A DNA stretch of 64,000 bases from Oscillospiraceae bacterium. GTDB taxonomy: Bacteria; Bacillota; Clostridia; Oscillospirales; Ruminococcaceae. Where the stretch lies: NCBI GenBank assembly GCA_017432285.1, contig JAFRJM010000019.1, forward strand, positions 18,291 through 82,290, written 5' to 3'. A program made the translations under genes and the position numbers. Below, piece after piece: positions 9,684-30,043 of the stretch (position 1 is the first letter of the stretch; each line of letters begins with the position of its first letter). The notes beneath the pieces are model-generated. The model did no database searches. It saw only the letters and a program-made list of their open reading frames with translations, and was not told where the DNA came from.

Positions 9684-11240
9684 TTAGTCAGCAGCTCTTG
9701 CGTTGTTGCTGAGCTGGGATTTCTCTCCGCGTTCGTTCTCATATCTTGCTTCCTCGCTGTGGAGGAGGAAGTCATTGATGTCAAGCAGGCACTGAGTCTG
9801 TTTTGTGATCTCAGTTGTTGTCTTGATCTCATCGAAGAACAGCATCTGGTTCGGCTCTTCCTTGGAGTAGGTCTTCCATTCAGGCATCGGGGTGCCGTCC
9901 TGATCCAGTCCGTTGGGGTTGCCGGTCTTTGCGAAGTTTGTCCAGTAGTTGCACATCTTTCTTGCAAGATCATAATGATGGCCGTCGAATGGTCTCCAGC
10001 ATTTGTTCAGGGTCTCAAAAGTGAACCAGAGCTCTGAGCTGTGGAATGCACCTGCATCGTCGCCGGGGATCGTGGGTCCGAAGGTGTAATAGTATGCCGG
10101 ATGGCCTTTGTCTGCAAGAGCTTCGCACATCAGCTTCTCTGTGAGATCGAAACCAACGATCTTCTTGTTGATGTCGCCGTCGCATGCCTCACGGTATGCT
10201 TCTGCATACTCGCCGAAATTCTTCTTGAGCCACTCTTCTTCTTCGCCCGGTTTGGGAACGAGGAAGAACTCGTTGTTGGTGTTGCCGGTCATGAAGTACT
10301 CGGGGTTCATTACGCCCTGTGCTGCCAGCTCATACCACTGAGCAGGTACGAACTCACCGTCGATTGCGGGGTTGAAGAACTGGTGGGACTCATGATACTT
10401 CTCTTCGATGAACTTCCAGGGCAGTTTGCGTGCTTCTTCGATAGTATCGCAGCCAAGCACGTCCTTTACGAAGTGAACGCCCTTTTCAAGAGCAACTTCC
10501 ATCGGGTCAGCGATAGGCATGAAGCATTTCGGATATTTGGCAAGGATTCCGCCGCAGGACTGTGCGATAGCTTTCTCGAACAATCCCTTGCTCTTCGGAG
10601 AAGTGCAGTGATACATCGTGCTGCCGCCGCCAGCGGACTGACCGTAAATGGTGATGTTGTCTGGGTCACCGCCGAAATTGGCGATATTGCGTTTGATCCA
10701 TGCAAGAGCATATGCCTGGTCGAGCAGACCATAGTTTGCCGGATGCTCTGGATCCTCTTTGACGAGGTCGGGGTGGGTGAGGAAACCGAAGCAGTTCAGA
10801 CGGTATGCGATGGAAACGAGGATGACGCCTCTGCGGTTCAGAGCTTCTCCGTCGAACTCCATCTCGTGGCAGTAGCCTTCCTGCAGGCCGCCGCCGAAGA
10901 TCCATACCATGACAGGAAGTTTCTCATCGCCTGTCTTAGCAGGTGTCCAGATGTTAAGAGCAAGGCTTCCGGCCTCGTCCATCGGGACCTCAGGATCGCA
11001 GTGCCACTCTTTTGAATAGAATGCATCAGGATTGATGCCCGGCACTTTCTGAACAGTGATAGGTGCGAACTCAAGGCAGTCGCGGACGCCTTCCCAAGGC
11101 TCTACGGGCTGCGGAGCACGCCAACGGTTCTCGCCGACAGGATCGGCTGCAAAGGGGATGCCTTTGAAAACGGTGGTGCGAACATCAGAACCCTGAATGC
11201 CGCGGACCCAGCCGCTTTCGGTTTTTGCGATACGTAGCAT
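9684..11240 (-). CDS. Type-B carboxylesterase Est1
   Basis: 518 residues, family of para-nitrobenzyl esterase and cholinesterase-like enzymes (alpha/beta hydrolase, COesterase domain over the full length). No signal peptide, so cytoplasmic. Visible catalytic parts: oxyanion GGG at 116-118, Ser202 in GQSAGG, Glu324 in GNTNNEF, His400 in GAFHSSELWF. The downstream CWRPFDGHHYDLARKMCNYW block (414-433) is nearly invariant in all eleven paralogues here. Last gene of the array. Its first 200 residues are almost identical to Est2, but the 225-340 region, which lines the acyl pocket in this family, differs. Start chosen at MLRIAKTESG, as in every paralogue. Confidence 0.93.
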   Translation of the reverse strand: MLRIAKTESGWVRGIQGSDVRTTVFKGIPFAADPVGENRWRAPQPVEPWEGVRDCLEFAPITVQKVPGINPDAFYSKEWHCDPEVPMDEAGSLALNIWTPAKTGDEKLPVMVWIFGGGLQEGYCHEMEFDGEALNRRGVILVSIAYRLNCFGFLTHPDLVKEDPEHPANYGLLDQAYALAWIKRNIANFGGDPDNITIYGQSAGGGSTMYHCTSPKSKGLFEKAIAQSCGGILAKYPKCFMPIADPMEVALEKGVHFVKDVLGCDTIEEARKLPWKFIEEKYHESHQFFNPAIDGEFVPAQWYELAAQGVMNPEYFMTGNTNNEFFLVPKPGEEEEWLKKNFGEYAEAYREACDGDINKKIVGFDLTEKLMCEALADKGHPAYYYTFGPTIPGDDAGAFHSSELWFTFETLNKCWRPFDGHHYDLARKMCNYWTNFAKTGNPNGLDQDGTPMPEWKTYSKEEPNQMLFFDEIKTTTEITKQTQCLLDINDFLLHSEEARYENERGEKSQLSNNARAAD

Positions 11241-11291
11241 ATTGTTGCCTCCATATATAATATGAATTTTGTTTTTGTTTAAATGCCCTGT

Positions 11292-12857
11292 TTACGGGTG
11301 GGCTTTGCCGTATTTTGCGTTGCTGGTCGACGTGATCGAGAAGAAAGCGTCAAGGTTTTTCGCTCTGGCTTCAGGATCATTCAGCAGATAGCGGTTGATC
11401 TCAAGCAGGCATGCTGTCTGATCAGAGAGCTCTTTGGTCGTAGATACTTCATCCATGAAGAGCATCTGGTTCGGTTCTTCCCTGGAATAGGTCTTCCACT
11501 CTGGCATCGGAGTGCCGTCCTGATCGACTCCGTTCGGATCGCCTGTCTTGGCGAAGTTCGTCCAGTAATTGGCCATCTTTCTCGCCAGATCATAGTGATG
11601 TCCGTCGAAAGGTCTCCAGCACTTGTTCAGTGTCTCAAATACGAACCACAGATCGGAGCTGTGGAATGCACCTGCTTCGTCTCCGGGGATCGTCGGTCCG
11701 AATGTGTAGTAATAGATAGGACGTCCGATATCGGCGAGAGCCTCACATAGGAGCTTTTCAGTTAGATCGAATCCAAGCACTTTCTTATAGATGTCTCCGC
11801 CGCAAGCTTCACGGTATTTTTCTGCGTTGTCGCCGAAGCTGTCCTTGAGCCATTTTTCAGGATCGTCACCCGGGGTGTAGATGAACTCGTTGTCGGTATT
11901 TCCGATCATCAGATATTTGGGGTTCAGCTGACCGGCCATTGCGCGCTCATACCACTGGTCAAGAACGAATTTTCCGTCGATGTTTGCTGTGAAACGAAGG
12001 TGAGATTTCTGATACTGTTCTTCTACGAATCTCCAGTCAAGTTTCCTCGCTTCTTCGATAGTGTCGACGCCTAGCCAGTCGTGCAGGAAGCGTACGCCTC
12101 TTTCCTCTGCAGTCTCCATCGGATCTGCAAGAGGGATGAAGCAGCGCGGATAGGTAGTGGGGATACCCGCTGCGGACTGTGATATTGCCTTGTCAAACAA
12201 GCCTGCGCTCTTCGGGGAAGTGCACTGGAACATCGTGCTTCCTCCGCCGGCTGACTGTCCAAATATAGTGATGTTGTCCGGATCACCGCCGAAATTGGCG
12301 ATATTGCGTTTGACCCAAGCTATAGCATAGTTCTGGTCAAGCAAACCGAAGTTTGTCGGGTTTTCGGGGTCCTCTTTTGTCAGATCAGGGTGGGCAAGGA
12401 AGCCGAATACATTGAGACGATAGGGGATGGAAACGAGAATGACGCCTTTGCGGTTCATGGCTTCACCGTCGAACTCCATTTCGTGGCAATAGCCTTCCTG
12501 GAATCCGCCGCCAAAGATCCAAATCATGACGGGAAGTTTCTCGTCGCCTGTCTTGGCAGGTGTCCAGATATTGAGGGCCAGGCTTCCTGCTTCATCCATA
12601 GGAACTTCAGGGTCGCAGTGCCACTCTTTTGAATAGAAAGCATCAGGATTGATTCCTGGAACCTTCTGAACAGTGATAGGAGCGAACTCAATGCAGTCGC
12701 GGACCCCTTCCCAGGGTTCTACAGGCTGCGGTGCTCGCCAGCGATTCTCACCGACAGGATCGGCAGCAAAGGGAATGCCTCTGAAAACGGTGGTGCGGAC
12801 ATCAGAACCCTGAATGCCGCGGACCCAGCCGCTTTCGGTTTTCGCAACACGTAACAT
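11292..12857 (-). CDS. Type-B carboxylesterase Est2
   Basis: 521 residues. Triad: Ser202 (GQSAGG), Glu324 (GNTDNEF), His399 (GAFHSSDLWF). Closest to Est1: over residues 1-200 only scattered conservative changes are seen, and even the DNA of the first 60 bases is nearly the same. The middle (225-340) and the C-terminal tail (ending ITSTSNAKYGKAHP) have diverged. The gap to Est1 is 51 bases and to Est3 47 bases, both with a GGAGGC-type ribosome site. A recent duplicate of Est1 with altered specificity is the simplest reading. Confidence 0.92.
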   Translation of the reverse strand: MLRVAKTESGWVRGIQGSDVRTTVFRGIPFAADPVGENRWRAPQPVEPWEGVRDCIEFAPITVQKVPGINPDAFYSKEWHCDPEVPMDEAGSLALNIWTPAKTGDEKLPVMIWIFGGGFQEGYCHEMEFDGEAMNRKGVILVSIPYRLNVFGFLAHPDLTKEDPENPTNFGLLDQNYAIAWVKRNIANFGGDPDNITIFGQSAGGGSTMFQCTSPKSAGLFDKAISQSAAGIPTTYPRCFIPLADPMETAEERGVRFLHDWLGVDTIEEARKLDWRFVEEQYQKSHLRFTANIDGKFVLDQWYERAMAGQLNPKYLMIGNTDNEFIYTPGDDPEKWLKDSFGDNAEKYREACGGDIYKKVLGFDLTEKLLCEALADIGRPIYYYTFGPTIPGDEAGAFHSSDLWFVFETLNKCWRPFDGHHYDLARKMANYWTNFAKTGDPNGVDQDGTPMPEWKTYSREEPNQMLFMDEVSTTKELSDQTACLLEINRYLLNDPEARAKNLDAFFSITSTSNAKYGKAHP

Positions 12858-12904: not shown

Positions 12905-14467
12905 TCATTTCTTGTTAATGTCTACCAGGAATCTGTCTCTCTCACTCGGGCCATCATCCATATAGACTTCGTCGTAGAAGCGCATGGAGCAGGGATTCTC
13001 GGTGGTGTACGGTGTCCAGGTGGGCATCGGTGTGCCGTCTTTGTCCAGACCATTGGGATCGCCGTACTTCGCGAAGTTGGTCCAGTAGTTGCACATCTTT
13101 CTGGCGAGATCGAAATGGTGACCGTCAAAAGGCCTCCAGCATTTCATCAGGGTCTCGAACTCGAACCACAGGTCGCTGGAATGGAACGCACCGGCATCGT
13201 CTCCGGGGATCGTCGGTCCGAATACGTATGTATAGAACTTGCGTCCCTGTTTTGCCACTGCCTCGTCGAACACTTCGTTGCCAAGCCACATCTGGCTGAC
13301 GGAAGCGTTCATGTAGTAATCGCCGGGCATGCTCTTGACAAGCTGACGATATTCTTCTGCGTGCGGTCCGAAGGTCTTGTCGATCCAGCGGTCCACTTTG
13401 GTGACTTCGTCCAATTCTTCCTCTTCACCGTTGTCAGTGACCTGCCCGAAAGCAAACATCTTCATGGTCTTGGCGTCTCCGTCCGGCTCCAGCAGGAACT
13501 CGTCCTTGGTGTTGCCGATCATGAATGTGTCGACATGGATATCGCCATCGAGGATAGCCTGATCGTTGGGCTTCACGACGATTTTGCCGTCAATGCAGGA
13601 GCCAAGTCTTAAAGGCAGTTCGTTGAAACGCTCAGAAAGGTCCTTCGCATCCAGGGCTCTCGCTTCCGCCAGCGTGCTGACACCGAGTGCTTTGAATACT
13701 TCCACACCAAGCTGTTCCTGCTCCGCAAGTGAACGTGTCAGTCTGGGAATAGGACGGCTGGGATAATCGAAGCCCATACCGCCGATGGATTCAATGATGC
13801 CTTTCTGGAAGAGACCCTTGGTCTTGGGGGACATCATTTGTGTCAGCGTGCTTCCGCCGCCTGCGGACTGCCCGAAGACTGTGATGTTCTCCGGATCGCC
13901 TCCGAAATTGGCGATGTTGCGTTTGACCCACGCGATACCTGCTGCCTGATCCTGATAGCAGAAGTTCGCCGGAGCTTCCGGGTTTTCTGCTGTGATCTCA
14001 GGGTGGGCGAGCAGTCCGAATACGTTAACACGGTAACCGATAGAGACAAGGATAACGCCGCGCGAGGCGATGCGCTCACCGTCGAACTCCATCTCATGGG
14101 GATAGCCTTCCTGCAGGCCGCCGCCGAAGATCCATACCATTACGGGAAGTTTTTCGTCCGTGGATTTGGCAGGCGTCCAGATGTTGGCTCTCAGGCAATC
14201 CTCGCCCATGGGGACTGCCGGGTCAACGTGCCACTCTTTGGAATAGAATTTTTCGGGGTCTTTGCCGGGAATGCGCTGCATGGGGATCGGTCCGAATTCG
14301 GAGCAGTCACGGACGCCTTCCCAATCCTTGGCGGGCTGTGGAGGACGCCAGCGGTTCTCACCGGCTGTGGTATCTGCAAAAGGAATGCCTTTGTAAACGG
14401 TGATCCGCGCGTCTGTGCCTACTACACCGCGGACGCGGCCGTTCTCAGTTCTGGTTTCTCTAAGCAT
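12905..14467 (-). CDS. Type-B carboxylesterase Est3
   Basis: 520 residues from MLRETRTENGRVRG; an in-frame ATG 14 codons earlier (14509) overlaps Est4, but the GGAGGC before 14467 and the start used by all paralogues favour this one. Catalytic motifs GQSAGGGS, GNTKDEFLLEP and GAFHSSDLWFEF are intact. It belongs with Est6 and Est7 (shared KGIPFADTTAGENRWRPPQP) but carries an insertion of about 15-20 residues after the Glu motif, including an acidic GEEEELDEV run, which may lengthen a surface loop by the pocket. Confidence 0.92.
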   Translation of the reverse strand: MLRETRTENGRVRGVVGTDARITVYKGIPFADTTAGENRWRPPQPAKDWEGVRDCSEFGPIPMQRIPGKDPEKFYSKEWHVDPAVPMGEDCLRANIWTPAKSTDEKLPVMVWIFGGGLQEGYPHEMEFDGERIASRGVILVSIGYRVNVFGLLAHPEITAENPEAPANFCYQDQAAGIAWVKRNIANFGGDPENITVFGQSAGGGSTLTQMMSPKTKGLFQKGIIESIGGMGFDYPSRPIPRLTRSLAEQEQLGVEVFKALGVSTLAEARALDAKDLSERFNELPLRLGSCIDGKIVVKPNDQAILDGDIHVDTFMIGNTKDEFLLEPDGDAKTMKMFAFGQVTDNGEEEELDEVTKVDRWIDKTFGPHAEEYRQLVKSMPGDYYMNASVSQMWLGNEVFDEAVAKQGRKFYTYVFGPTIPGDDAGAFHSSDLWFEFETLMKCWRPFDGHHFDLARKMCNYWTNFAKYGDPNGLDKDGTPMPTWTPYTTENPCSMRFYDEVYMDDGPSERDRFLVDINKK

Positions 14468-14495: not shown

Positions 14496-16022
14496 TTAAA
14501 GAAGTCCAAGATTTTTAAGGTTGATATTTACGACTGCCTGGATGACCGGATCTTCCTTCTCAAGAGGATAGATCTCATCGCCGAGGAAGAGGATGTTTCT
14601 TTCTTCGTTATATTTTTTCCACTCAGGCATATCTGTTCCGTCAGCATCCTTGCCGTTCGGGTTGCCTGTGCGGGCGAAGTTTGCGAAGTAGTTGCACATC
14701 TTTCTGGCAAGATCATAGTGGTGGCCGTCGAACGGTCTCCAGCAGTTGCGGATGTTGTCGAACTCGAACCAGAGGTCGCTGGAGTGGAATGAACCTGCAT
14801 CATCGCCCGGGATCTCAGGATCGAAGATCTCGAAGTATGTGTCTTTTCCGGCGTGGAGCAGAAGCTCTGCGCTCAGGAGGTTTGCAGCATGGAAGGATGA
14901 GAATGTGGCAGCTTTCTTGAGCGCTTCCGGATCATCGCTTCCAGCCTTCTCGCGTACAGCGGCCATGAATTCATCAGCATATTTGCCAAATGATTCATTT
15001 ACCCACTGATCGAGATCGCCTCTCGGACCTGTCGGGAATTCATCACCGGTAACCGTTAGCATGATGTCGATATCATTCATGTCGCCGTCAAGCATAGCCT
15101 GATTAGGATCCTTTACGCAGAACACGTTGTCTACCAGCGGGAACATGAATTTGAAGGTCTCGGCGCGGTACTGTACCTGTTTGTCGGAGACATATCTCGC
15201 ATCGAGTGCTCTTGCTTCTTCGATCGTCTTTACACCGAGGTAATCCAGGAATTCCTGTCCGAAAGCTTCACCATAGGCAAGGTCCTTGGTTCCGATTCCG
15301 AAGAATTTGCTCTCAGGAAGTGCAAGGGCACCGAAACCGGGGGACTGGAAGATAGCACGCTGGAACAGCCCTTTGGCAAGAGGAGATGCTGAAAGATATT
15401 CAGAGGCATGTCCGCCGCCGGACTGGCCGAAGATAGTTACGTTATCAGGATCTCCGCCGAAGTTGGCAATGTTGTTCTTTATCCACTTCAGGGCTGCGAT
15501 GCAGTCGAGGAGTCCATAGTTTGCAGGATCGCCTGGCTGAGCTTCTGTGATCTCTTTATGAGCCATGAATGCGAAAACGTTAAGACGGTATGTGATCGAC
15601 ACAAGAACGATGCCGCGTTTTGCGAACTGCTCTCCGTCGAACTCCATCTCATGGCCGTATCCTTCCTGCATTCCGCCGCCATGGATCCACATCATGACAG
15701 GCATCTTCTCGTCGCCGGTCTTTGCGGTAGTCCACACGTTCAGATAGAGGCAGTCTTCGTCCATTGAGATCTCCGGATCGACGTGCCATTCCTTTGAATA
15801 GAAAGCATTCGGATCGAGACCGGGTGTGGTCTGCATTGCGATCGGACCGTACTCATAGCAGTCACGGATGCCTTCCCAGTTGGCTGCAGGCTGGGGAGCG
15901 CGCCAGCGGAGCTCTCCTACAGGAGGTGCAGCATAGGGGATTCCCTTGAATACTGTTACACGGGCATTGGTTCCGGCAAAGCCGCGGACCATTCCGTTTT
16001 CAGTCTTTGTTACTCGAAGCAT
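14496..16022 (-). CDS. Type-B carboxylesterase Est4 (GQSGG subgroup)
   Basis: 508 residues. The nucleophile elbow is GQSGGGHASEYL, not GQSAGG, the oxyanion region reads MWIHGGGMQEGYGHE, and the Glu motif is VTGDEF. His is in GSFHSSDLWFEF. With Est8 it forms a distinct subgroup: both have PPVGELRWRAPQPAANW or a close match and end in NxNLKxxGL. Interleaved with members of the other subgroup, so the array did not grow by simple end-to-end doubling. The next gene (Est5) is 14 bases upstream. Confidence 0.92.
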   Translation of the reverse strand: MLRVTKTENGMVRGFAGTNARVTVFKGIPYAAPPVGELRWRAPQPAANWEGIRDCYEYGPIAMQTTPGLDPNAFYSKEWHVDPEISMDEDCLYLNVWTTAKTGDEKMPVMMWIHGGGMQEGYGHEMEFDGEQFAKRGIVLVSITYRLNVFAFMAHKEITEAQPGDPANYGLLDCIAALKWIKNNIANFGGDPDNVTIFGQSGGGHASEYLSASPLAKGLFQRAIFQSPGFGALALPESKFFGIGTKDLAYGEAFGQEFLDYLGVKTIEEARALDARYVSDKQVQYRAETFKFMFPLVDNVFCVKDPNQAMLDGDMNDIDIMLTVTGDEFPTGPRGDLDQWVNESFGKYADEFMAAVREKAGSDDPEALKKAATFSSFHAANLLSAELLLHAGKDTYFEIFDPEIPGDDAGSFHSSDLWFEFDNIRNCWRPFDGHHYDLARKMCNYFANFARTGNPNGKDADGTDMPEWKKYNEERNILFLGDEIYPLEKEDPVIQAVVNINLKNLGLL

Positions 16023-16036: not shown

Positions 16037-17551
16037 TTACGGTTTATTGACTCTGAGTAAGAATTTGCGTTTTTCTGTGTAGGGGCTGTGATCCATAACG
16101 ATCTCGTCACCGAAGAAGATATTGCATCTGTCTTCATCTGTGAATGCATCCCAGTGGAGCATCGGTGTGCCGTCTTTATCAAGTCCGTTAGGATCACCGG
16201 TCTTTACGAAGTTGGCCCAGTAGTTTGCCATCTTTCTGGAAAGATCGAAGTGGTGCCCGTCAAACGGTCTCCAGCATTTCAGAAGGTTCTCGCTCATGAA
16301 CCACAGATCACTTGAGTGGAATGCACCGGCATCGTCTCCGGGGATAGTGGGTCCGAAGATGTAATAATGTACATCGCGTCCCTGTTTTGCGAACTCTTCA
16401 AGTGCAAGCTGTGAGCCAAGCTCAAATGTGCCGACTGTAGCTACTTTGCGGAGAGATTCACCGGACTCTGCTGCCATCTTGCGGCAGATATCGAGATATT
16501 CGTCTGCGTTTTCACCGAAGCTGTCTTTTGCCCATGCTTCGATCTCTGCTTCGTCATCGGATCTCGGTCCGTTCATGAACTCATTTGTGGTATTGCCGAT
16601 AAGGATCGGGATGCGGGGCAGTTCATCATTCACGATAGCTTCATTCTGGCTCTTGGGAAGGAACTTGCCGTCTACCATCGGTCCGAACATGTATCCGGAC
16701 TCAAGGCATTTCTCTTCGATGAACCATGCATCGAGCTTCCTTGCTTCAGCAATAGTATCTACGCCGAGGACCTCTTTCAGGAACTTTGCGCCATACTGCT
16801 GAGCATCTTCAAAAGTGAAGGAGCGGAATCCGAGAATCGACTTCGGATATCTGAATCCGAGTCCGCCAGCGGACTGGATGATAACTTTCTGATAAAGGTG
16901 TCTGCTGCCGGGGGAGGTGAGGTGGTTCCATACGCTTCCGCCGCCTGCTGACTGACCGCCGATAGTGATGTTCTGGGGATCCCCGCCAAAATTGGCGATA
17001 TTCCTTACGATCCACTCAAGACCTGCTCTCTGGTCGAGCATACCAAAGTTAGTAGGAGCTTCCGGTGCTTCTGCTGTGAGTTCGGGATGGCAGAGGAATC
17101 CGAATACGTTTACACGGTATGCTACGGAGACATAGATGATTCCGCGGCTAGCGAGACGCTCGCCGTCGAATTCCATCTCGTGGGCATAACCTTCTTTGAA
17201 GGCACCGCCGAAGAACCATACGAATACCGGGAGCTTCTCATCTGTGCTCTTCGCAGGAGTCCAGATGTTAAGCCTCAGGCTGTCTTCGCCCATAGGTACT
17301 TCAGGGTCAACATGCCACTCTTTTGAATAGAATGCATCAGGGTTTTTGCCGGGGATCGCCTGCATAGTGATAGGCCCGAACTCAGAGCACTCGCGGACAC
17401 CTTCCCAGGGTTCTGCGGGCTGAGGAGCACGCCAGCGGTTATCACCGCATGTCGGTGCTGCATAGGGAATGCCTTTGTATGCAGTGATCCTTGCATCTGT
17501 TCCGACAACTCCGCGTACGCGTCCGTTCTCGGTAATAGTTTCACGCAACAT
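16037..17551 (-). CDS. Type-B carboxylesterase Est5
   Basis: 504 residues. Motifs: GGQSAGGGSVWNHL (nucleophile), GNTTNEFMNGP (acid), GAFHSSDLWFMSENL (histidine). The usual WFxFE after the histidine is WFMSE here, the only paralogue with this change. The N-terminus is of the ENGRVRGVVGTDARI type but reads ITAYKGIPYAAPTCG. The 205-300 segment is unlike that of any neighbour. Spacing: 14 bases before Est4 and 21 after Est6. Confidence 0.92.
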   Translation of the reverse strand: MLRETITENGRVRGVVGTDARITAYKGIPYAAPTCGDNRWRAPQPAEPWEGVRECSEFGPITMQAIPGKNPDAFYSKEWHVDPEVPMGEDSLRLNIWTPAKSTDEKLPVFVWFFGGAFKEGYAHEMEFDGERLASRGIIYVSVAYRVNVFGFLCHPELTAEAPEAPTNFGMLDQRAGLEWIVRNIANFGGDPQNITIGGQSAGGGSVWNHLTSPGSRHLYQKVIIQSAGGLGFRYPKSILGFRSFTFEDAQQYGAKFLKEVLGVDTIAEARKLDAWFIEEKCLESGYMFGPMVDGKFLPKSQNEAIVNDELPRIPILIGNTTNEFMNGPRSDDEAEIEAWAKDSFGENADEYLDICRKMAAESGESLRKVATVGTFELGSQLALEEFAKQGRDVHYYIFGPTIPGDDAGAFHSSDLWFMSENLLKCWRPFDGHHFDLSRKMANYWANFVKTGDPNGLDKDGTPMLHWDAFTDEDRCNIFFGDEIVMDHSPYTEKRKFLLRVNKP

Positions 17552-20645: not shown

Positions 20646-22169
20646 TTATTTCAGACCGTAGTATTTAAGGTTCGCATCCAAAACGTAGCGAATGACCGGA
20701 TCCATGTATTCTTCCTGTTTGACTTCATCGCCAAATTCGATTGCGCGTCCGGTCTCTATATAAGGTCTCCACTCAGGCATTGGTGTGCCGTCCGCATCAT
20801 TGCCGTTCGGGTTGCCGGTGCGTGCGAAGTTAGAGAAGTAGTTGCACATCTTTCTTGCAAGGTCATAGTGGTGTCCGTCGAACGGCCTCCAGCATGCCGC
20901 CAGAGTCTCAAAAGCGAACCACAGATCGCAGGAGTGGAATGCGCCGACTCCGTCTCCCGGGATATACGGGTCAAACAGGCTGAAATAGACCTTATGGCCG
21001 TACTTGGTCAGGATCTCTGCGGTAAGCCTGTTGGATGCGTGCATGGATGAGAAGTTTGCTGCACGGAGCAGATCCTCTCTGCTGTCGTTCCCGGCTTTAT
21101 ATTTTGAGACTTTGATATAGCCGTCTGCATAATCGCCGAATTCTCTCTTTGCCCATTCCTCGAAAGGCTCTCTCGGATCGACAGGGAACTCATCGCGTGT
21201 GCAGGTAACCATGACGTCCACATCGTTGACCTCATTGGCTGCCAGTGCGCGGCCGGGTCCTTTTACACAGAATATCCCGTCTACGAGACCGGTCATGAAT
21301 TTGAAGGTCTCTGCGCGGAACTTGACCTGTTTGTCGTTGATATAGTCTGCGTCCAGTTTTCTGGCTTCCTCGATGCTGCTGACTCCGAGATAATCAAGGA
21401 ATGCCTTACCGAGCTCTTCTCCGTAAGCCAGATCATGTGTCTCGGTATCGAAAACACCTTTCGGGATGCGGGAAGCGTTGAACCCCGAAGACATTGTGAT
21501 CGCTCTCCTGCAGAGACCGACAGTCATAGGGGAGGTGATGAGGAAAAGGGTAGCGTCAGCACCGCCGGACTGTCCGAAGATGGTGACATTGTCCGGATCG
21601 CCGCCGAAGTTGGCGATATTCCTCTTGATCCACTTCATTGCAGCTACGCAGTCGAGAAGGCCGAAGTTGCATGGATCGCCGGGCTGTGCTTCCGTCAGAC
21701 CTTTGTGTGCCATGAAGGCAAACACATTCAGACGGTATGTAATTGAGACAAGAACTATTCCGCGTTTTGCGAAGTTCTCTCCGTTGAATTCCTGTTCGTG
21801 GCCATAGCCTTCCTGCATTCCGCCTCCGTGGATCCACATCATGACGGGAAGCTTCTCGTCGGTGGAATTTGCAGGGGTCCAGACGTTCAGGTAAAGGCAG
21901 TCCTCACTCATGGGGATCTCCGGATCCACATGCCATTCTTTTGAATAGAAAGCGTTGGGGTCGGTTCCGGGTCTGTTCTGCATTGCTATCGGGCCGTAAT
22001 CATAACATTCACGTACGCCATCCCAGTTTGCAGCGGGCTGGGGAGCACGCCAGCGGAGATCTCCTACAGGCGGTGCGGCATACGGGATTCCTTTATAAAC
22101 AGTGATACGTGCATTGACTCCCGCGACACCGCGGACACGTCCGTTCTCTGTAAAAGTCTCACGCAGCAT
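20646..22169 (-). CDS. Type-B carboxylesterase Est8 (GQSGG subgroup)
   Basis: 507 residues. The nucleophile elbow is GQSGGADATLFL, the acid motif TCTRDEFPVDP, the histidine GAFHSCDLWFAFETLAACW. Partner of Est4 in the MWIHGGGMQEGYGHE subgroup, but its first 16 residues (MLRETFTENGRVRGVA) are those of Est7, directly downstream. That mix suggests recombination between neighbours. 99 bases separate it from Est9, the longest gap in the array, and this gap holds a 10-bp hairpin. Confidence 0.92.
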   Translation of the reverse strand: MLRETFTENGRVRGVAGVNARITVYKGIPYAAPPVGDLRWRAPQPAANWDGVRECYDYGPIAMQNRPGTDPNAFYSKEWHVDPEIPMSEDCLYLNVWTPANSTDEKLPVMMWIHGGGMQEGYGHEQEFNGENFAKRGIVLVSITYRLNVFAFMAHKGLTEAQPGDPCNFGLLDCVAAMKWIKRNIANFGGDPDNVTIFGQSGGADATLFLITSPMTVGLCRRAITMSSGFNASRIPKGVFDTETHDLAYGEELGKAFLDYLGVSSIEEARKLDADYINDKQVKFRAETFKFMTGLVDGIFCVKGPGRALAANEVNDVDVMVTCTRDEFPVDPREPFEEWAKREFGDYADGYIKVSKYKAGNDSREDLLRAANFSSMHASNRLTAEILTKYGHKVYFSLFDPYIPGDGVGAFHSCDLWFAFETLAACWRPFDGHHYDLARKMCNYFSNFARTGNPNGNDADGTPMPEWRPYIETGRAIEFGDEVKQEEYMDPVIRYVLDANLKYYGLK

Positions 22170-22259: not shown

Positions 22260-22268
22260 CTGTTCGTT

Positions 22269-23807
22269 TTAAAGGTTTGCTTTGATTAGAAGTTCTGTCT
22301 TGGGATCGACAGGATCATGTTTGACATAGAGCTCATCGACAAATTCAATCTGGCAGGGATCTGCTTCAGTGTAAGGATCCCACTCCGGCATCGGCGTGCC
22401 GTCCTTGTCATTTCCGTTAGGATCGCCTGTCTTTGCAAAGTTGGTCCAGTAGTTGCACATCTTTCTTGCGAGGTCAAAGTGATGGCCATCAAAAGGTCTC
22501 CAGCATTTCATGAGAGTCTCAAATTCGAACCAGAGGTCGCAGGAATGGAATGCGCCTGCGTTGTCACCCGGGATGGTCGGGCCGAAATGATACAGATATG
22601 TCTTCTGTCCGGCTTTTTCTCTCTGACGCGCAAGTACATAGAGGCTGAAGCAGCTGATGAACACTGTTGCCTCATGAGCAACGGTTGTTCCTTTCTCTGC
22701 TGCAGCTTTGCGGCAAACATCAAGATATTCGTCAGCGTACTCACCGAATTCGCTGCGGATCCATGCTTCTGTCTCTTCATCTGATGCGAATGCATCCGGA
22801 GGAGCCATAGGATGCTTCTGACCGGGGCCTCTGTAGAATCCCTCATTGGTGTTGTAACCCGTCATGATCGGGATCGGAAGCATACGTCCTTCACGTGCTG
22901 TTACCGTATAGTCTTCTGTTACATAATTGCCGTCGTCAACGACACGGAGCCAGAGATTGGACTCGAGGAATTTATCTTCAATGTATTTTGCATCGAGTTT
23001 TCTTGCTTCAGCGAGTGAGTTCACGCCGAGTGACTTGAAGAATTCCACGCCGATCTTTTCAGCTTCTTCAAGGGTGCCTACGCCGCCCATAAATGATTTA
23101 GGATATTTCGTGCCGGTTCCGCCGAATGACTGCGGGATAGCTTTCTGGAACAGGCCTTTATTCTGCGGAGCTGCGAGGTGGTGCATAACTGCCACACCGC
23201 CGGCAGACTGGCCAAATACTGTGATGTTCTCAGGGTCACCGCCGAAGTTGGCGATGTTTCTTTTTACCCATTCGATACCGAAACGCTGGTCAAGAAGTCC
23301 GTAGTTAGCTGGCTGATCGGGATTCTCTGCTGTGATTTCGGGGTGGCAGAGGAAGCCGAAGCAGTTGAGACGGTAACCGAGGGAAACGAGGATGACGCCT
23401 CTGGATGCGAAGCGCTCGCCGTCAAACTCCTGCTCATGTGGATATCCTTCGCGGAATCCGCCGCCGAAGATCCATACCATTACAGGGAGCTTGTCCTCAG
23501 TTGTTTTGGCAGGTGTCCAGATGTTGGCCCTGAGGCTGTCCTCGCCCATGGGAACTTCCGGATCCACGTGCCACTCTTTTGCATAGAATGCCTCAGGATC
23601 TTTTCCGGGGATGTCCTGCATGGAGATCGGTCCGAATTCGGAGCAGTCTCTCACACCTTCCCAGTCCTTTGCGGGCTGCGGGGGACGCCAGCGGTTCTCG
23701 CCGGACGTATCGGCTGCAAATGGAATGCCTTTGTAGACTGTGATGCGCGCATCGGTTCCTACGACACCGCGTACGCGGCCGTTCTCAGTTCTGGTTTCTC
23801 TTAGCAT
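22269..23807 (-). CDS. Type-B carboxylesterase Est9
   Basis: 512 residues. Motifs: GQSAGGVAVMHHL, TGYNTNEGFYRGP (acid motif nearer the classical TxxEG form), GAFHSCDLWFEF. The N-terminal 60 residues match Est3 (MLRETRTENGRVRGVVGTDA), while residues 225-370 are unique, with an EDYTVTAREGRMLPIPI stretch and a loop GQKHPMAPPDAFASD. A different pocket is therefore likely. Starts 18 bases after the Est10 stop. Confidence 0.92.
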   Translation of the reverse strand: MLRETRTENGRVRGVVGTDARITVYKGIPFAADTSGENRWRPPQPAKDWEGVRDCSEFGPISMQDIPGKDPEAFYAKEWHVDPEVPMGEDSLRANIWTPAKTTEDKLPVMVWIFGGGFREGYPHEQEFDGERFASRGVILVSLGYRLNCFGFLCHPEITAENPDQPANYGLLDQRFGIEWVKRNIANFGGDPENITVFGQSAGGVAVMHHLAAPQNKGLFQKAIPQSFGGTGTKYPKSFMGGVGTLEEAEKIGVEFFKSLGVNSLAEARKLDAKYIEDKFLESNLWLRVVDDGNYVTEDYTVTAREGRMLPIPIMTGYNTNEGFYRGPGQKHPMAPPDAFASDEETEAWIRSEFGEYADEYLDVCRKAAAEKGTTVAHEATVFISCFSLYVLARQREKAGQKTYLYHFGPTIPGDNAGAFHSCDLWFEFETLMKCWRPFDGHHFDLARKMCNYWTNFAKTGDPNGNDKDGTPMPEWDPYTEADPCQIEFVDELYVKHDPVDPKTELLIKANL

Positions 23808-23825: not shown

Positions 23826-25373
23826 TTAGTCTTTATTGAAATAAGGGTCATAGTTGATCTTAACGATGAATTCTGTAACTTCATCCGGACCAGACTCGGA
23901 TAGAGCGACTTCATCGAAGAAGTTCATGTTGCGGTGTCCGTCCTTGTATTCAGGCCAGTAGGGGAGATCTGTTCCATCGTTGTCTTTTCCGTTGGGGTTG
24001 CCGGTCTTAATGAAGTTGCTCCAGTAGTTGCACATCTTGCGGGCAACATCATAGTGATGTCCATCAAATGGTCTCCAGCTGTTGGCGAGGGTCTCGAATG
24101 AGAACCACAGGTCGCTTGAGTGGAATGAACCCGCATCGTCACCGGGCATCGTCGGGTTAAACTCATAGGTGTACACAGGTCTGCCCTGAGCCTCGAACAG
24201 TTTTCCGATCATATAGTTCGAAGTTCTGTTGATGTTGATCATAGCAGCTTTGCGCACTGCCTCAACATCGGTGGTTCCAGCTTGTTTTATAGCTGTATCG
24301 ATGTATTCTTTTCCGTGGCCGTTCAGCTTTTTGTCGCCCCATTCGACCATCTCTTCAAGGGTATCTCCCTCCGGATAGAAATTGACCTCGTCTGAAGTGT
24401 ATCCGGTGAGGAAGGGGACTCTGTGAGTCTCATCGTTGATAAGATAATCTGTAGGATCCTTGGGCAGGAACTTGCCGTCCACACACTGTACGAAGCGATG
24501 GAAGGTCTTTTCCATATATTCGACGAACTTGTCGCGGATGAAGAATGCATCCAGTTTGCGTGCTTCTGCGATAGTATCGCACCCAAGATACTCTTTCAGG
24601 AAAGCGGCACCCTGTTTTTCACACGATTCAAGAGAACGGTAAGGCCCGAAGAAGCAGGGAGGATATACTGCCGGGAAGCAGCCCCCTGAACTGGACTGAA
24701 CGGTAGCTCTCTGGAACAGGCCTTCTGTTGTAGGAGATGCCATCATTGCCATTACCTGCAGGCCGCCTGCAGACTGGCCACCTATAGTGATGTTTTCCGG
24801 GTCGCCGCCGAAATTGGCTATATTTCGTTTGATCCATTCAAGTCCGGCTTTCACATCAAGATAACCGAAGTTAGCAGGAGCATCAGGCTGGTCTCTTGTA
24901 AGGTCCGGGTGAGCTAAGAATCCGAACACGTTGACACGGTATGCGATGGATACGACAACTATGCCTCTGGAAGCCATGTGTTCACCGTCAAACTCCATCT
25001 CATGTGAATAACCTTCTGTAAGACCGCCGCCGAATATCCACGCATAAACCGGCAGTTTGTCATCGGTGCTGTTTGCGGGTGTCCAGATATTGAGTGCAAG
25101 GCTGTCTTCGCTCATGGCGATCTCAGGCTCTACATGCCACTCCTTTGAATAGAAGGCATCACGATCCTCACCGGGTGTCTTCTGCATGGTGATGGGCGGA
25201 AATACATAGCAGTCCCTTACACCTTCCCACGGCTCTACCGGCTGTGGTGCGCGCCAGCGGTTTTCACCGGATGTGTCAGCTGCGAAAGGGATGCCTTTAT
25301 ACACTGTGATTCTTGCGTTGTTGCCGGCTACTCCGCGAACGAGACCGGACTCAGTTTTTGTCATTCTAAGCAT
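23826..25373 (-). CDS. Type-B carboxylesterase Est10, first gene of the array
   Basis: 515 residues. Motifs: GGQSAGGLQVMAM, TGYTSDEVNFYPEG, GSFHSSDLWFSFETLANSW. The most divergent member of the minus-strand set; its N-terminus (MLRMTKTESGLVRGVAGNNA) is between the two main types and it has YAWIFGGGLTEGYSHE at the oxyanion hole. As first gene it has its own promoter about 40-70 bases upstream and a GGAGGGT ribosome site. All downstream esterases probably depend on this promoter. Confidence 0.93.
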   Translation of the reverse strand: MLRMTKTESGLVRGVAGNNARITVYKGIPFAADTSGENRWRAPQPVEPWEGVRDCYVFPPITMQKTPGEDRDAFYSKEWHVEPEIAMSEDSLALNIWTPANSTDDKLPVYAWIFGGGLTEGYSHEMEFDGEHMASRGIVVVSIAYRVNVFGFLAHPDLTRDQPDAPANFGYLDVKAGLEWIKRNIANFGGDPENITIGGQSAGGLQVMAMMASPTTEGLFQRATVQSSSGGCFPAVYPPCFFGPYRSLESCEKQGAAFLKEYLGCDTIAEARKLDAFFIRDKFVEYMEKTFHRFVQCVDGKFLPKDPTDYLINDETHRVPFLTGYTSDEVNFYPEGDTLEEMVEWGDKKLNGHGKEYIDTAIKQAGTTDVEAVRKAAMININRTSNYMIGKLFEAQGRPVYTYEFNPTMPGDDAGSFHSSDLWFSFETLANSWRPFDGHHYDVARKMCNYWSNFIKTGNPNGKDNDGTDLPYWPEYKDGHRNMNFFDEVALSESGPDEVTEFIVKINYDPYFNKD

Positions 25374-25411
25374 AAAAAAGACCCTCCTACTCCATTCTGT
25401 AAGTTGTCTAA

Positions 25412-25507: not shown

Positions 25508-25528
25508 TTGTACAAATAAGTTGTACAA
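25508..25528. promoter_or_regulatory. Pair of TTGTACAA boxes upstream of the MFS gene (probable AraR operator)
   Basis: Two perfect TTGTACAA palindromes at 25508-25515 and 25521-25528, centres 13 bases apart. The same octamer occurs before araR and before Est11. AraR of Bacillus binds TTGTxCGTACAA-type palindromes, so AraR is the natural candidate. The site lies between the divergent Est10 and MFS genes and could act on both. Confidence 0.65.
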
Positions 25529-25617
25529 AAATGTATGGAAATATGTACGCAACAGGGTTTACAATCCGCAAGGGTATCAGTTATCATTGTAAAGTAGGCC
25601 AGAAGGGAGGTAGCGCT

Positions 25618-26820
25618 ATGGCAGAGAATAGAGCGGAAAACACCGAATTAGCTCAGGAAAAAGTATGGACGATACCTTTCTTAATGGTCTTTTTGAACAG
25701 TATGGTGGTCAGCAGCACACAGTGGGCTGTAGCTCCGATGATGAGCTCCTACTGCATCGATCTTGGTGCGACACTGAAAACAGCATCATTTGTTTCGACC
25801 CTTATGTCGATGACTGCGATGTTCCTTCGCCCGATATCCGGATATGTTGTTGACAGGATGAACCGCAAAAAGCTTCTGACGATCACTACTGCTGTCAACG
25901 TGGTACTCGCCATCATGCACACCTTTGCCAACAATATTCCTTTCCTGGCAGTGTGCCGTGTCCTGCAGGGCGTGACATTCGCCTTTTCAGGAGTAGCGTC
26001 TATGGCTTTAAGTACGTCAGTGGTTCCAACTTCGAGGCTCGGAGAGGGAATGGGATGGATGGCTCTTGCAAATGTCATCTCCCAGTCATTAGGCCCTTCT
26101 ATCGGAACGTTCCTTATTGAGAAATTCGGATATTCAGCATGTTTCGTGTTCTGTGCTTTTGCTAGCGCGCTTTCATTGTTCATTCTTAGGTTCATTCCAT
26201 ATACTTATGAACCTAGTACGACAGAGCGAAAGAAGTTCCACATCACAGATCTTATTTCACTTTATATCGTGCCTTACTCAGTGATCATGGGATTGTTCAG
26301 CAGCTGCAATGGTCTTGATAACACATTCCTCGCACTCTTGGGCAAAGAGAGGGGAATCACAGGATTTGCGTTGTTCTTTACTGCTTACTCCATCGTTATG
26401 TTCGTTTGCCGACCGATAGCAGGAAAACTGCTTGACCGCTACGGACTGGATTACACGATATATCCTGCTCTGATGCTTACTGCTGCATCTGCATGTCTGA
26501 CTGGCTCTGCGTATTCAATGGCAGCGATCCTGATCGCTGGAGCTCTTAAAGGAATCGGTCAGTCTGCCGGTTCTCCGGGTATTCAGGCAACATGTCTGAA
26601 GAAACTTGGAAAAGAGAGGGCGGGCATTATCAGCAGCACATGTTATATATTCCAGGATATCGGAAACTCTATCGCTCCGATAATTGGAGGATTTGTTGCT
26701 GAGCGCTGGGGATATACGACAATGTTCTGGGGTTACGGTATCATCCTTGTGGTATGCGGAAGCCTGATCTACAGGATCAAGTCCCAGTATGATAAGACGC
26801 ACCCGTACGTAGAAAATTGA
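25618..26820 (+). CDS. Major facilitator superfamily transporter
   Basis: 400 residues from the ATG at 25618, chosen because GGGAGG lies six bases before it; longer in-frame starts have no such site and would cover the operator boxes. Twelve hydrophobic segments are evident. The MFS loop 2-3 motif appears as GYVVDRMNRKKLL (near residues 78-90), and its second-half counterpart as GKLLDRYGLDY. No substrate can be read from sequence. Its position, divergent from the esterase array and beside araR, suggests uptake of the ester substrate or export of released acids. Confidence 0.85.
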   Translation: MAENRAENTELAQEKVWTIPFLMVFLNSMVVSSTQWAVAPMMSSYCIDLGATLKTASFVSTLMSMTAMFLRPISGYVVDRMNRKKLLTITTAVNVVLAIMHTFANNIPFLAVCRVLQGVTFAFSGVASMALSTSVVPTSRLGEGMGWMALANVISQSLGPSIGTFLIEKFGYSACFVFCAFASALSLFILRFIPYTYEPSTTERKKFHITDLISLYIVPYSVIMGLFSSCNGLDNTFLALLGKERGITGFALFFTAYSIVMFVCRPIAGKLLDRYGLDYTIYPALMLTAASACLTGSAYSMAAILIAGALKGIGQSAGSPGIQATCLKKLGKERAGIISSTCYIFQDIGNSIAPIIGGFVAERWGYTTMFWGYGIILVVCGSLIYRIKSQYDKTHPYVEN

Positions 26821-26971: not shown

Positions 26972-28105
26972 TTATTTCTCCCAGGCTATCATTTCAGATT
27001 TTGTTTCTTTTCCTGCGATCATGTCAAGAAGTTTCTTTCCGACGATTTCGCCGATACTGTCTTTCGGGTATCCGAGAGAATATGTTTCGATGCCTCTTGC
27101 GCTGCGAAGCGGGATGTGACGGTCAAAACTGTATAGAGCACGTACGCTTATGTCACCCTCTACTTTGTCAAGAACATCCAGAATAGCTTGGGAAACGGTG
27201 TCATTATAACATACCAGAGCTGTGCATTTTGTGAACATGTTCTTGAACAGCGGGAAATCAGTCGTGCGTTCCTCAAGATAGTTGCGGATGATGGGAGAGG
27301 ATTCTGTCGTATACCAGATGACGTTCTTGTCATCGAAATCTGCTTTATGGTAGAGCATACAGTCGATATAACCTGAGAACCTGACGAAGCCCTGCATATC
27401 ATCGGATTTGAACACACCGCCGATGGCATGGTGTCCGTCATTGATCAGCTTTTCCGTAAGTGCATAGCCTCCGGCATAGTCATCAAGAACAACGTGTCTG
27501 ATATTTGCTACTTTATCGGAAAGAGCAGTTCCTCCAGCATCGTTATGACGGGAAATGACATGCGGATAATTTGGGATCTCTAGTCCAGGATAATAGTTAT
27601 TGAACATAACGATTGGTATGCCCATATCAGCCAGTTTGCTGTAGAGAAAAACGTTGGGGTTGGGCATGGTGGTCTTCGTGCCTTCGATAGCTATCCCGTC
27701 AACAGGATGCTCAAGCAGATCCTCTAGGATCTTGCGTTCGGTAGCGATGCTGTTGTTCGTAGCCCTGACATTCACTGTATATCCGGCCCCGCTCACAAGG
27801 TTGTCGATGCCGCGGAGTATGGAAGGGAAGATGTATTCACTGATGTACGAAGTGATGATAGTGATATGCATCGTCTTCGTACGGACAGGGACTTCAAAAG
27901 CAACATAAGAGCCGCTGCCCTGTACACTTGTGATAAGATTGTCTTTTGAAAGGTCATTCAATGCCTTGCGGATCGTCTGTCTGCTGACACCAAATCTTTC
28001 ACTGAGAGCGCTTTCCGTAGGAAGTTTATCACCCTTTTTGTATTCGCTGTTCAGTATCTGGGCGCGAAGTTCAGCAGCGATAGCCACCGATTTAGAATAT
28101 GCCAT
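26972..28105 (-). CDS. araR: AraR-type arabinose repressor (GntR DNA-binding domain, LacI-like sensor domain)
   Basis: 377 residues from MAYSKSVAIA; an ATG 46 codons earlier is in frame, but the AAAGGAGC ten bases before 28105 supports this start. Residues 1-75 are a GntR winged helix (LPTESALSERFGVSRQTIRKALNDL). The rest is a periplasmic-binding-protein-like sensor with AraR landmarks IPIVMFNNYYPGLE and DDYAGGYALTEKLINDGH, then FKSDDMQGFVRFSGY. AraR releases DNA when L-arabinose binds. It is divergent from the Est11-ABC-araA unit. Its own promoter -35 overlaps a TTGTACAA box, so it is probably self-repressed. Confidence 0.88.
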   Translation of the reverse strand: MAYSKSVAIAAELRAQILNSEYKKGDKLPTESALSERFGVSRQTIRKALNDLSKDNLITSVQGSGSYVAFEVPVRTKTMHITIITSYISEYIFPSILRGIDNLVSGAGYTVNVRATNNSIATERKILEDLLEHPVDGIAIEGTKTTMPNPNVFLYSKLADMGIPIVMFNNYYPGLEIPNYPHVISRHNDAGGTALSDKVANIRHVVLDDYAGGYALTEKLINDGHHAIGGVFKSDDMQGFVRFSGYIDCMLYHKADFDDKNVIWYTTESSPIIRNYLEERTTDFPLFKNMFTKCTALVCYNDTVSQAILDVLDKVEGDISVRALYSFDRHIPLRSARGIETYSLGYPKDSIGEIVGKKLLDMIAGKETKSEMIAWEK

Positions 28106-28129
28106 GGTGCAGCTCCTTTCGTTTTTTTC

Positions 28130-28174
28130 AGTATATACACCAACAGACAAAATGTACAACATTATTTTGTACAA
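28130..28174 (-). promoter_or_regulatory. araR promoter with overlapping TTGTACAA boxes
   Basis: Minus strand: TTGTAC (28159-28154), 18-base spacer, TATACT (28135-28130). The -35 lies in box ATGTACAA (28152-28159); a perfect box TTGTACAA is at 28167-28174, centres 15 bases apart. Repressor bound here would occlude the -35. Confidence 0.6.
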
Positions 28175-28222
28175 ATTTTTGCTGATTAGTGCGAAAGGGT
28201 GTGTTTTTGGCTCAAAAAATGC

Positions 28223-28277
28223 CATGTTAAGTACAGTTAACATGCCTTAATAAGCCATGTTAAGTGCGGTTAACATT
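28223..28277. promoter_or_regulatory. Two tandem dyads, CATGTTAA-N6-TTAACATG type
   Basis: Dyad 1 (28223-28244) has perfect 8-base arms CATGTTAA and TTAACATG around GTACAG. Dyad 2 (28256-28277) has arms CATGTTAA and TTAACATT around GTGCGG. Centres are 33 bases apart, about three helical turns, so two bound dimers would lie on the same face. The motif is unrelated to TTGTACAA, so a second regulator is likely. They sit in the 396-base gap between araR and Est11. Confidence 0.6.
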
Positions 28278-28461: not shown

Positions 28462-28501
28462 TTTACGCCGTCCCAAATCAGACAAATTTTGGAGGATAAA
28501 A

Positions 28502-30043
28502 ATGATCAAGGAAACCAGAGTAGAGAACGGATTTGTTCGAGGAGTGCCCGGTGCGGATCCCAGGGTTATCTCTTACAAAGGTATTCCTTTTGCTGCTCCT
28601 CCTGTAGGCGAGAATCGCTGGAGAGCTCCTCAGCCTGCAAAAGATTGGGAAGGCGTTTTAGATTGCTGCAGATTTGGCCCGATAAGCATGCAGCGTGCCC
28701 CTTGGCTTACACAGAACATTTATACTAAAGAATGGAACGTAGACCCCACGCTTGAAATGAGCGAGGACAGTCTTACATTAAATATATGGACCCCCGCACA
28801 GACAGTGGAAGACAGACTGCCTGTTTATGTATGGTATTTCGGCGGCGGTATGATGGAAGGCAACCCCACAGAGATGGAGTTCAACGGCGAGCGTCTCGCG
28901 CGCCGCGGCATCGTTGTTGTCACCATCAACTATCGTCTGAATGTCTTCGGCCTTCTGGCACATCCTGAGATCACGGCAGAAAGTCCGGAATTCCCGACCA
29001 ACTTCGGCCTTCTGGATCAGCGTTTTGGTACGATGTGGGTCAAGCGCAACATCACCGCTTTTGGCGGAGATCCTGAGAACATCACAATCGGAGGTCAGTC
29101 CGGCGGAGGAAGAAGCACTCAGATGCAGGTGTGCTCTCCTTTGAATAAGGGACTCTTCCAGAGAGCGATCGTTATGAGCTCGACTCGCTTCGGCGGCTAT
29201 GATGTTCTGACCAATCTCAGTTCATGCAGGACACTTGCTCAGGCGGAAGCAGACGGTGTAGAATTCTTCAAGGAAGCTGGCATAAAAGATCTTGCAGAAG
29301 CACGTGCACTTCCTGCTGAAGAATTGATGCAAAAGTTTGTTAAGTATGCTAGACTAGAAAATGGCCTTGGCCCCGGAATCAAATTCTGGCTTCCTGTCAT
29401 CGATGGAAACTTTTGCACAGGCAGTTTCAGCGATCAGCTCACAACTAACAAACGCAATATGGTTCCTCTGATGATCAGCAATACTGCTGATGAAGGCCGT
29501 ATCGCTCCTCAGGTAAGTTCTTTTGAAGAACTTGAGGCACTTGCAGCAAGGAATTTCGGCGACCGCGCAGGAGATTTCCTGGATGCCGTTAAAGCGGACA
29601 CTCTCGAAGAGACTTTGAAAAATGCCACTTATAGTCCGATGGAACTCGGAATGCGTCTCTATTTCGAGGGAACAGCAAAAGAGTATCCTGAGATCAACAA
29701 CTATGCAGTACTGTTTGACTGCGAGATCCCTGGTGATGATCATCCCGGAACATTCCATTCAAGCGATCTCTGGTTCCACTTTGAATCTCTTGGCGCATGC
29801 TGGAGGCCGTTCAAGGGCAAGAGCTACGACATGGCGAGACAGATAGCAAACTATGTTGCCAGCTTTGTAAAGGACGGTGACCCCAACTGCTGCGACTGTG
29901 ACGGTGTACCACAGGCTGAATGGAAGCCATACACACAGTGCCGCGGACAGATGCATTACACCGATGTCTGCAAGCAGGAAGATGATTCCTTCGAGACACC
30001 TGTAATGAGATTCTTGGTAGATTACTACCTCGCACAATTTTAG
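28502..30043 (+). CDS. Type-B carboxylesterase Est11, first gene of the arabinose operon
   Basis: 513 residues from MIKETRVENG, with GGAGG six bases upstream of the ATG; a longer in-frame start exists at 28454 but would run through the operator box. Catalytic motifs: GGQSGGGRSTQM, SNTADEGRIAPQ, GTFHSSDLWFHF. The invariant block reads CWRPFKGKSYDMARQIANYV here, unlike the FDGHHYDLARKMCNYW of the array. It is the only paralogue on the plus strand and heads the ABC transporter and araA genes, which ties this esterase family directly to arabinose metabolism. Confidence 0.93.
   Translation: MIKETRVENGFVRGVPGADPRVISYKGIPFAAPPVGENRWRAPQPAKDWEGVLDCCRFGPISMQRAPWLTQNIYTKEWNVDPTLEMSEDSLTLNIWTPAQTVEDRLPVYVWYFGGGMMEGNPTEMEFNGERLARRGIVVVTINYRLNVFGLLAHPEITAESPEFPTNFGLLDQRFGTMWVKRNITAFGGDPENITIGGQSGGGRSTQMQVCSPLNKGLFQRAIVMSSTRFGGYDVLTNLSSCRTLAQAEADGVEFFKEAGIKDLAEARALPAEELMQKFVKYARLENGLGPGIKFWLPVIDGNFCTGSFSDQLTTNKRNMVPLMISNTADEGRIAPQVSSFEELEALAARNFGDRAGDFLDAVKADTLEETLKNATYSPMELGMRLYFEGTAKEYPEINNYAVLFDCEIPGDDHPGTFHSSDLWFHFESLGACWRPFKGKSYDMARQIANYVASFVKDGDPNCCDCDGVPQAEWKPYTQCRGQMHYTDVCKQEDDSFETPVMRFLVDYYLAQF

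Follow-up and report, generated by a model that had tools for sequence, protein, structure and literature searches.

A tandem battery of type-B carboxylesterase genes linked to an arabinose locus in an Oscillospiraceae bacterium

Introduction

The question raised by the locus described here is why ten intact esterase genes should stand in a row beside the genes of arabinose metabolism. The locus lies in a stretch of 64,000 nucleotides from an Oscillospiraceae bacterium with kin among gut species (assembly GCA_017432285.1, completeness rating 54.57%; contig JAFRJM010000019.1, positions 18,291 to 82,290), hereafter the window, whose own numbering is used throughout. A first-pass annotation had described there eleven type-B carboxylesterases of the PF00135 family and had proposed that they serve a dedicated system for arabinose esters. 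The tandem array is real, and its linkage to arabinose genes is conserved within the genus; what the array might do is a matter of more graded probabilities.

Results

The esterase array

Ten intact PF00135 genes lie head to tail on the minus strand from 9684 to 25373, over a span of 15,690 bp. These are (with the value of the PF00135 match) E1 (9684..11240, 1.1e-88), E2 (11292..12857, 2.4e-86), E3 (12905..14467, 1.5e-84, scanned from an alternative TTG start at 14509), E4 (14496..16022, 1.3e-93), E5 (16037..17551, 4.7e-87), E6 (17573..19081, 6.6e-85), E7 (19101..20609, 8.4e-86), E8 (20646..22169, 2.5e-92), E9 (22269..23807, 5.5e-88), and E10 (23826..25373, 2.1e-90), the last being the first gene of the array. 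With the E3 start taken at ATG 14467 and not at TTG 14509, the intergenic gaps measure 51, 47, 28, 14, 21, 19, 36, 99, and 18 bp, and the earlier description of ten tandem paralogues on one strand, within about 15.7 kb and with gaps of 14-99 bases, is thus borne out by the gene calls and the PF00135 scan. It was also right in placing an eleventh esterase, E11 (28502..30043, plus strand, 2.3e-83, scanned from the alternative TTG start at 28454), as the first gene of the divergent operon of ATP-binding cassette (ABC) importer genes, galM, and araA. All eleven proteins score above the curated PF00135 cut-off, and identity to the first paralogue is 44-77%. As an observation on composition, G+C per 4 kb is 0.505-0.530 at 12001-24000, within the array, versus 0.435-0.498 in the remaining window.

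Three further esterases, of the PF00756 family, flank the type-B set: (a) (8025..8873, minus strand) and (b) (8860..9585, minus strand), downstream of the array, and (c) (38071..38949, plus strand). All three are profile matches; relatives of (a) and (b) stand behind the E1 orthologue in the genomes G148, G080, G239, and G174, and (c) adjoins AraR in the last three. Since two of them lie behind E1 and one after the FGGY kinase gene, fourteen esterases surround the arabinose genes; the inventory of eleven given earlier holds for the type-B enzymes of the locus and had missed both these three and 30 other PF00135 genes of the genome.

The catalytic Ser-Glu-His triad, already noted in the first-pass annotation, is invariant in all eleven sequences (S202, E324, and H400 in the first). 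Among the 41 PF00135 proteins of the genome, the serine and the histidine are present in every one (41/41 each); 32 of them have Glu as the acidic residue, and 9 have Asp. A hydropathy test of the N-terminus, used in place of a dedicated signal-peptide predictor, detected a hydrophobic N-terminus in none of the eleven, and a clear one in a single protein of the 40 tested from the genome; the absence of signal peptides claimed before is upheld to this extent, and a cytoplasmic location fits. The structure predicted for E7 (mean pLDDT 90.3) has the carboxylesterase fold, and its best matches in a fold search were a polyurethane-degrading esterase, cholinesterases, mammalian carboxylesterases, and the p-nitrobenzyl (pNB) esterase; the search gave nothing on the substrate.

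When scored against a profile built from the eleven proteins, the PF00135 proteins of the genome separate into A-type (14 of 41, 631-932 bits) and B-type (23 of 41, 166-218 bits), with four between. A nearly fixed stretch after the catalytic histidine, centered on FETLxxCWRPFDGHH, accompanies this division, its WRP being found in 14/14 A-type, 1/4 intermediate, and 0/23 B-type proteins. The ten tandem paralogues vary least at residues 421-440, after His406, and vary strongly at residues 205-212, after the nucleophile, and just after Glu322. The residues that follow the nucleophile are expected to line the acyl pocket.

The arabinose genes of the window

The assignment of the locus to arabinose rests on two genes that it harbors together: araA, for L-arabinose isomerase (34891..36357, plus strand), whose product passes a curated cut-off (NF002795, 740.6 bits against 622), and the gene for an AraR-type regulator with GntR DNA-binding and sugar-binding domains (26972..28243, minus strand), whose best solved chains, 3tb6 and 4egy, are those of the arabinose metabolism repressor. 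The other genes, all on the plus strand, code for a major facilitator superfamily (MFS) transporter divergent from the array (25531..26820, PF07690 4.1e-49), the sugar-binding protein (SBP) of the ABC importer (30112..31077, PF13407 1.5e-48), a permease of the RbsC/AraH type (31201..32172, PF02653 6.4e-37), an ATPase of the AraG/RbsA type (32208..33737, scoring under the cut-off of each of the 25 NCBIfam models shown), aldose 1-epimerase GalM (33788..34846, PF01263 2e-73), and, adjoining araA, an FGGY kinase recognized from domain scans and gene context (36428..37987), called a ribulokinase from its position only. The ABC importer, the kinase, and the MFS protein reach no equivalog cut-off among the NCBIfam models shown, and the kinase has no solved structural relative at E 1e-5. 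Cytosolic esterases are linked here to a sugar importer. Glycoside hydrolases (GH) are absent among the operon genes scanned, and the GH51 and GH43 genes of the genome lie on other contigs. For the PF00756 esterases (a) and (c), the nearest matches are 4rgy and other general esterases; ferulic acid esterases match far more weakly.

Elsewhere in the window, a protein of the BD-FAE family (49953-50831, E 1.2e-37), a family whose name refers to feruloyl and acetyl xylan esterase activity (PMC8165983), adjoins a GH20 gene. An isomerase with a fucose-isomerase C-terminal domain is encoded at 39031-40509, its sulfoquinovose isomerase match being far under the cut-off, and a pair formed by a YjjI glycyl radical enzyme and a YjjW activase lies at 1950-4324.

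Conservation of the linkage in relatives

The eleven-protein profile (E <= 1e-100, up to three candidates scored per genome) matched in 30 of 396 genomes of the family sample, seven of them of the same genus; match-free genomes were listed in part, and there may be genus members without array genes. The araA gene was sought in two rounds, in 10 and in 25 genomes. In five of the seven genus genomes with array-type genes, araA and the array share a contig, at distances of 9.5, 4.9, 6.2, 6.2, and 5.7 kb; in the other two, the contigs end before a linkage could show. In G290, araA and the array both lie on contigs under 6 kb, and in G148 (whose places are those of G370) one contig ends and another begins inside E10, which suggests the gene order of the window for this genome too.

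Three gene orders were recognized. Order I (array, MFS, AraR, and then E11-SBP-AraH-AraG-GalM-AraA-FGGY-PF00756c) is that of the window, of G332 as far as its contig end, and of G148 in pieces. In order II (G080, G239, and G174), PF00756c and AraR are divergent from a same-strand FGGY-AraA-AraH-AraG-GalM-esterases series, with E9-E1-PF00756b-a elsewhere; about 1 kb without a convincing gene separates araA from araH there (L032:5586-6585 and L063:11220-12235), and no relative of the window binding protein was found in this gap. Order III belongs to G150 (SBP-AraH-AraG-esterase-GalM-five esterases-MFS), in which AraG is 75% identical to that of the window and galM has one esterase gene before it and five after it, making a six-esterase array, with AraA, AraR, and the E11 orthologue encoded on another contig.

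Outside the genus, the seven genomes with both araA and a match to the A-type profile (G043, G090, G180, G286, G302, G334, and G397) never have the two on the same contig (0/7), a count in which broken assemblies could mask some adjacency. In G039, of another genus (its places are those of the genome of L010), eight esterase genes stand in a row, araA lies on another contig, and no arabinose gene is beside the array. Conserved linkage in relatives thus holds within the genus (5/7) and in the further genome G150. The linkage thus accompanies the array and, as the three gene orders show, survived rearrangement, the genus counting as one lineage.

Promoter motifs

The promoters of the array and of the arabinose genes have candidate motifs in common. 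In the gap between the array and the MFS gene, a candidate AraR box, GTACAAATAAGTTGTAC (25510..25526), lies 4 bp upstream of the MFS ATG and 136 bp upstream of E10; its half-sites match, the motif having been taken from these same regions. In G332 and G148, the place aligned to it keeps the right arm and carries two mismatches in total. The survey covered 349 kb in 21 hand-chosen stretches, with a complement-only control. Exact RTACAANNNNNTTGTAY sites number four, all in relevant promoters (control, 0), and the three outside the window precede the FGGY-araA-esterase operons of G080, G239, and G174.

The second motif, AGACAACTT, stands in the array promoter region on the minus strand (25401..25409), aligned with copies in G332 and G148. 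It occurs three times in L067 and three times in L059, and all six copies fall in the gap between array and MFS gene or in that between AraR and E11 (means after shuffling, 0.04 and 0.09). In the window, a single exact copy stands in the array gap and an 8-base match in the AraR/E11 gap, besides further copies at 2588, 38469, and 32974 (8 bases). With these motifs, we infer that AraR would co-regulate esterases and arabinose genes. The exact Bacillus subtilis ara-box consensus, also tried, did not match closely anywhere in the window regions (6/16 mismatched at best).

History of the paralogues

In a tree of 75 sequences (rows under 400 residues left out and three long-branch rows, with prefixes L051, L042, and L048, dropped), the ten tandem genes fall into six clades, namely E4/E8, E1/E2, E5, E10, E9, and E3/E6/E7; some deeper forks are weak or open. 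Each clade has a member in G150, and four of them (not E9 nor E3/E6/E7) have members in G039. As these clades are shared with another genus and with G150, most array lineages are older than the genus. The ratio of nonsynonymous to synonymous substitution (dN/dS), estimated for 18 gene pairs, is 0.011-0.131 in 15 of them, the highest being that of the paralogue pair E1/E2, and dS is saturated in the other three. These values indicate that the tested pairs are under strong purifying selection.

Discussion

The explanation that we favor, with a probability of about one half, is that the locus encodes an AraR-controlled module for the cytosolic de-acylation of acyl-arabinosides, with paralogues specialized for different acyl groups. 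According to it, an arabinose locus under AraR would have absorbed a battery of cytosolic esterases. Small plant arabinose esters, freed by other enzymes or microbes, would be taken up by the MFS transporter, and perhaps by the ABC importer as well, and the ten tandem type-B esterases, the eleventh, and the three PF00756 enzymes would each strip different acyl groups in the cytoplasm. The released arabinose would undergo mutarotation by GalM, isomerization by AraA, and phosphorylation by the FGGY kinase, and would lift the AraR repression of the esterases. The paralogues would differ mainly in the acyl group accepted, the alcohol side being constant; the strong variation at residues 205-212 and the slight variation at 421-440 speak for this. 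The import of intact esters, the division of labor, and the type of substrate are read from genes and their context, and ferulate, coumarate, and acetate are guesses. On arabinose linkage, candidate shared motifs, and purifying selection, the proposal of the first-pass annotation is supported in part, its arabinose link being upheld; against a dedicated arabinose-ester system stand the 30 PF00135 genes located elsewhere and the unlinked array of G039.

Several observations weigh against the favored explanation. The genome has 41 PF00135 genes, of which 30 are not at the arabinose locus, the eight-gene array of G039 is not on the araA contig, and the genomes of one genus are not independent of each other. 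The importer resembles ribose, arabinose, and xylose systems and stays under every cut-off shown. Both motifs were counted in the very regions that had supplied them (AGACAACTT through alignments); the stretches scanned in G080, G239, G174, and G150 have no copy of AGACAACTT, and those of G150 also lack the 17-base motif. With up to two mismatches allowed, the 17-base motif shows no enrichment in the window (4 sites versus 5.85 expected), and over the 21 stretches such two-mismatch sites number 28 versus 31 in the control, so that only the exact sites stand out. Moreover, dS exceeds 1 in all 15 pairs, which makes the dN/dS values rough, one array gene of G148 is broken by stops (decay or assembly error), and neither GH51 nor GH43 was found in G150, which was searched and may be incomplete. 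Lastly, variation among the ten tandem paralogues is high also across most of residues 221-395 and at the C-terminus, and is therefore not confined to any pocket. This last point bears on a bolder version of the favored explanation, a combinatorial battery in which a constant arabinose-binding side (the post-His stretch) would be joined to diversified acyl pockets within one AraR regulon, as a new carbohydrate-esterase family; we regard this version as tentative and rather unlikely.

Among the rival explanations, the one that survives best is general ester scavenging, in which the enzymes would act on many plant esters (glycosides, phenolic esters, and acyl-sugars), AraR would serve as a signal of plant material, and the substrates may lack arabinose; it is a possible explanation, less probable than the favored one. 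The thirty genes outside it make the locus one part of a wider expansion. Twelve of these, all B-type and divergent, form a second cluster on contig C28 (C28:20252-52018, L023-L025), together with genes for two sugar-binding proteins, an FGGY kinase, a HAD phosphatase, and an aldo-keto reductase, and with a nearby MFS gene whose product is 52% identical to that of the window; this cluster is perhaps a sister ester-sugar locus. B-type arrays in G066 are likewise accompanied by MFS genes and by genes similar to the PF00756 esterases of the window. In the family sample surveyed for PF00135 (148 genomes), 72 genomes match at E <= 0.001 and 58 pass the cut-off; a first look gave 47 candidates in this genome versus a maximum of 26 in the order sample (394 genomes) and 12 in the phylum sample (398 genomes) among the genomes listed, match-free genomes being listed in part. 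The number of PF00135 genes exceeds chance, and the genome is an outlier in the samples surveyed. General scavenging is opposed by the rearranged forms of the locus, in which esterase genes stand on both sides of galM, within the very operon for arabinose transport. Two further arrangements were seen near related genes: eight head-to-tail open frames of about 325 codons each behind a B-type esterase (L031:9824-18001), two of which were scanned and match PF00756 weakly, and a RuBisCO-like protein (PF00016) with a Bmp-type binding protein in the neighborhood of an A-type esterase on contig C18 of the same genome (L030:4504-5706).

A second rival, which we consider improbable, keeps arabinose and holds that the enzymes act mainly on acylated arabinosides other than fragments of the cell wall, for example those of flavonoids or saponins. 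It would agree with the likeness of the importer to monosaccharide systems and with the failure to find GH51 or GH43 in G150; the GH51 and GH43 genes that several relatives have close to related esterases speak against it and for the favored explanation. Of 18 GH51 places (nine genomes), five are at a distance of 2.7-4.2 kb from an A-type or intermediate esterase, in G080, G290, G239, G174, and contig C11 of the genome under study, where a PF00756 esterase stands between GH51 and the related esterase; four of the five probably go back to a single arrangement that was inherited. As for GH43, one gene stands behind the G148 array, and another is close to an A-type esterase on contig C41 of this genome. 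With about 40 esterase genes per genome, single neighborhoods of this kind are weak evidence.

Finally, a neutral or gene-dosage amplification with no division of labor, to which the tandem layout, the copy number varying among genomes, and the broken G148 copy might point, is very improbable, and neutral decay or recent amplification is unlikely, given the old divergent lineages of the tree with their orthologues in relatives and the low dN/dS.

If the de-acylation module is correctly described, the bacterium would be specialized on the acyl decorations of plant sugars and not on the sugars themselves, with the acids released inside the cell. Acyl specificity could be mapped with this ready set of about twelve natural esterases, divergent members of one family whose alcohol side is predicted to be common, and some 40 PF00135 genes in a small genome, an outlier among the samples, call for an ecological reason.

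Comparison with known systems

No description of a tandem type-B carboxylesterase array at an arabinose locus was found in the open-licence literature, searched with some narrow terms. Among single enzymes, the type-B carboxylesterases 1qe3 (pNB esterase), 2ogt (Est50), and 8s6d (fumonisin esterase) share family, length, and fold with the proteins of the array; in the fold comparison, E7 is 28% identical to 1qe3 and 26% to 8s6d. As to regulation, the ara boxes of B. subtilis have GTaCGTAc-centered half-sites (PMC4218819), and its AraR regulon resembles the present locus in the AraR-type regulator and in TTGTAC/GTACAA-like half-sites; it differs in that no esterase is named in the available portion of that report, and in that the arms in the window are 5 bases apart and in the opposite orientation.

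The esterase-gene-enriched polysaccharide utilization locus (PUL) of Bacteroides intestinalis (PMC7815789) is similar in joining, in one locus, several esterases of differing specificity, in that case for complex arabinoxylan. According to the text at hand, its five putative esterases belong to carbohydrate esterase (CE) families CE1 and CE6/CE1 or are unassigned, have predicted signal peptides, and are nowhere in that text referred to as carboxylesterase or PF00135.

The closest outline is that of the Xua system of Ruminiclostridium cellulolyticum (PMC11127375), which was reported in 2024 as the first arabinoxylan-fragment import system with a cytosolic feruloyl esterase. It is described there as comprising XuaH (CE1), XuaJ (CE20), an arabinoxylodextrin importer, four glycoside hydrolases, and a two-component regulator; with it, the removal of acyl groups from imported arabinoxylan fragments inside the cell is a known process, which resembles the role proposed here. 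Of the GH51, 43, 8, and 39 enzymes of the Xua-type operon, none is among the operon genes scanned in the window, and in place of two esterases there are eleven type-B and three PF00756 enzymes, with AraR and a monosaccharide-like importer. The present locus would work along the same general lines as the Xua and B. intestinalis systems, and differs from both in enzyme family, in regulator, in its monosaccharide-like importer, and in having far more esterases.

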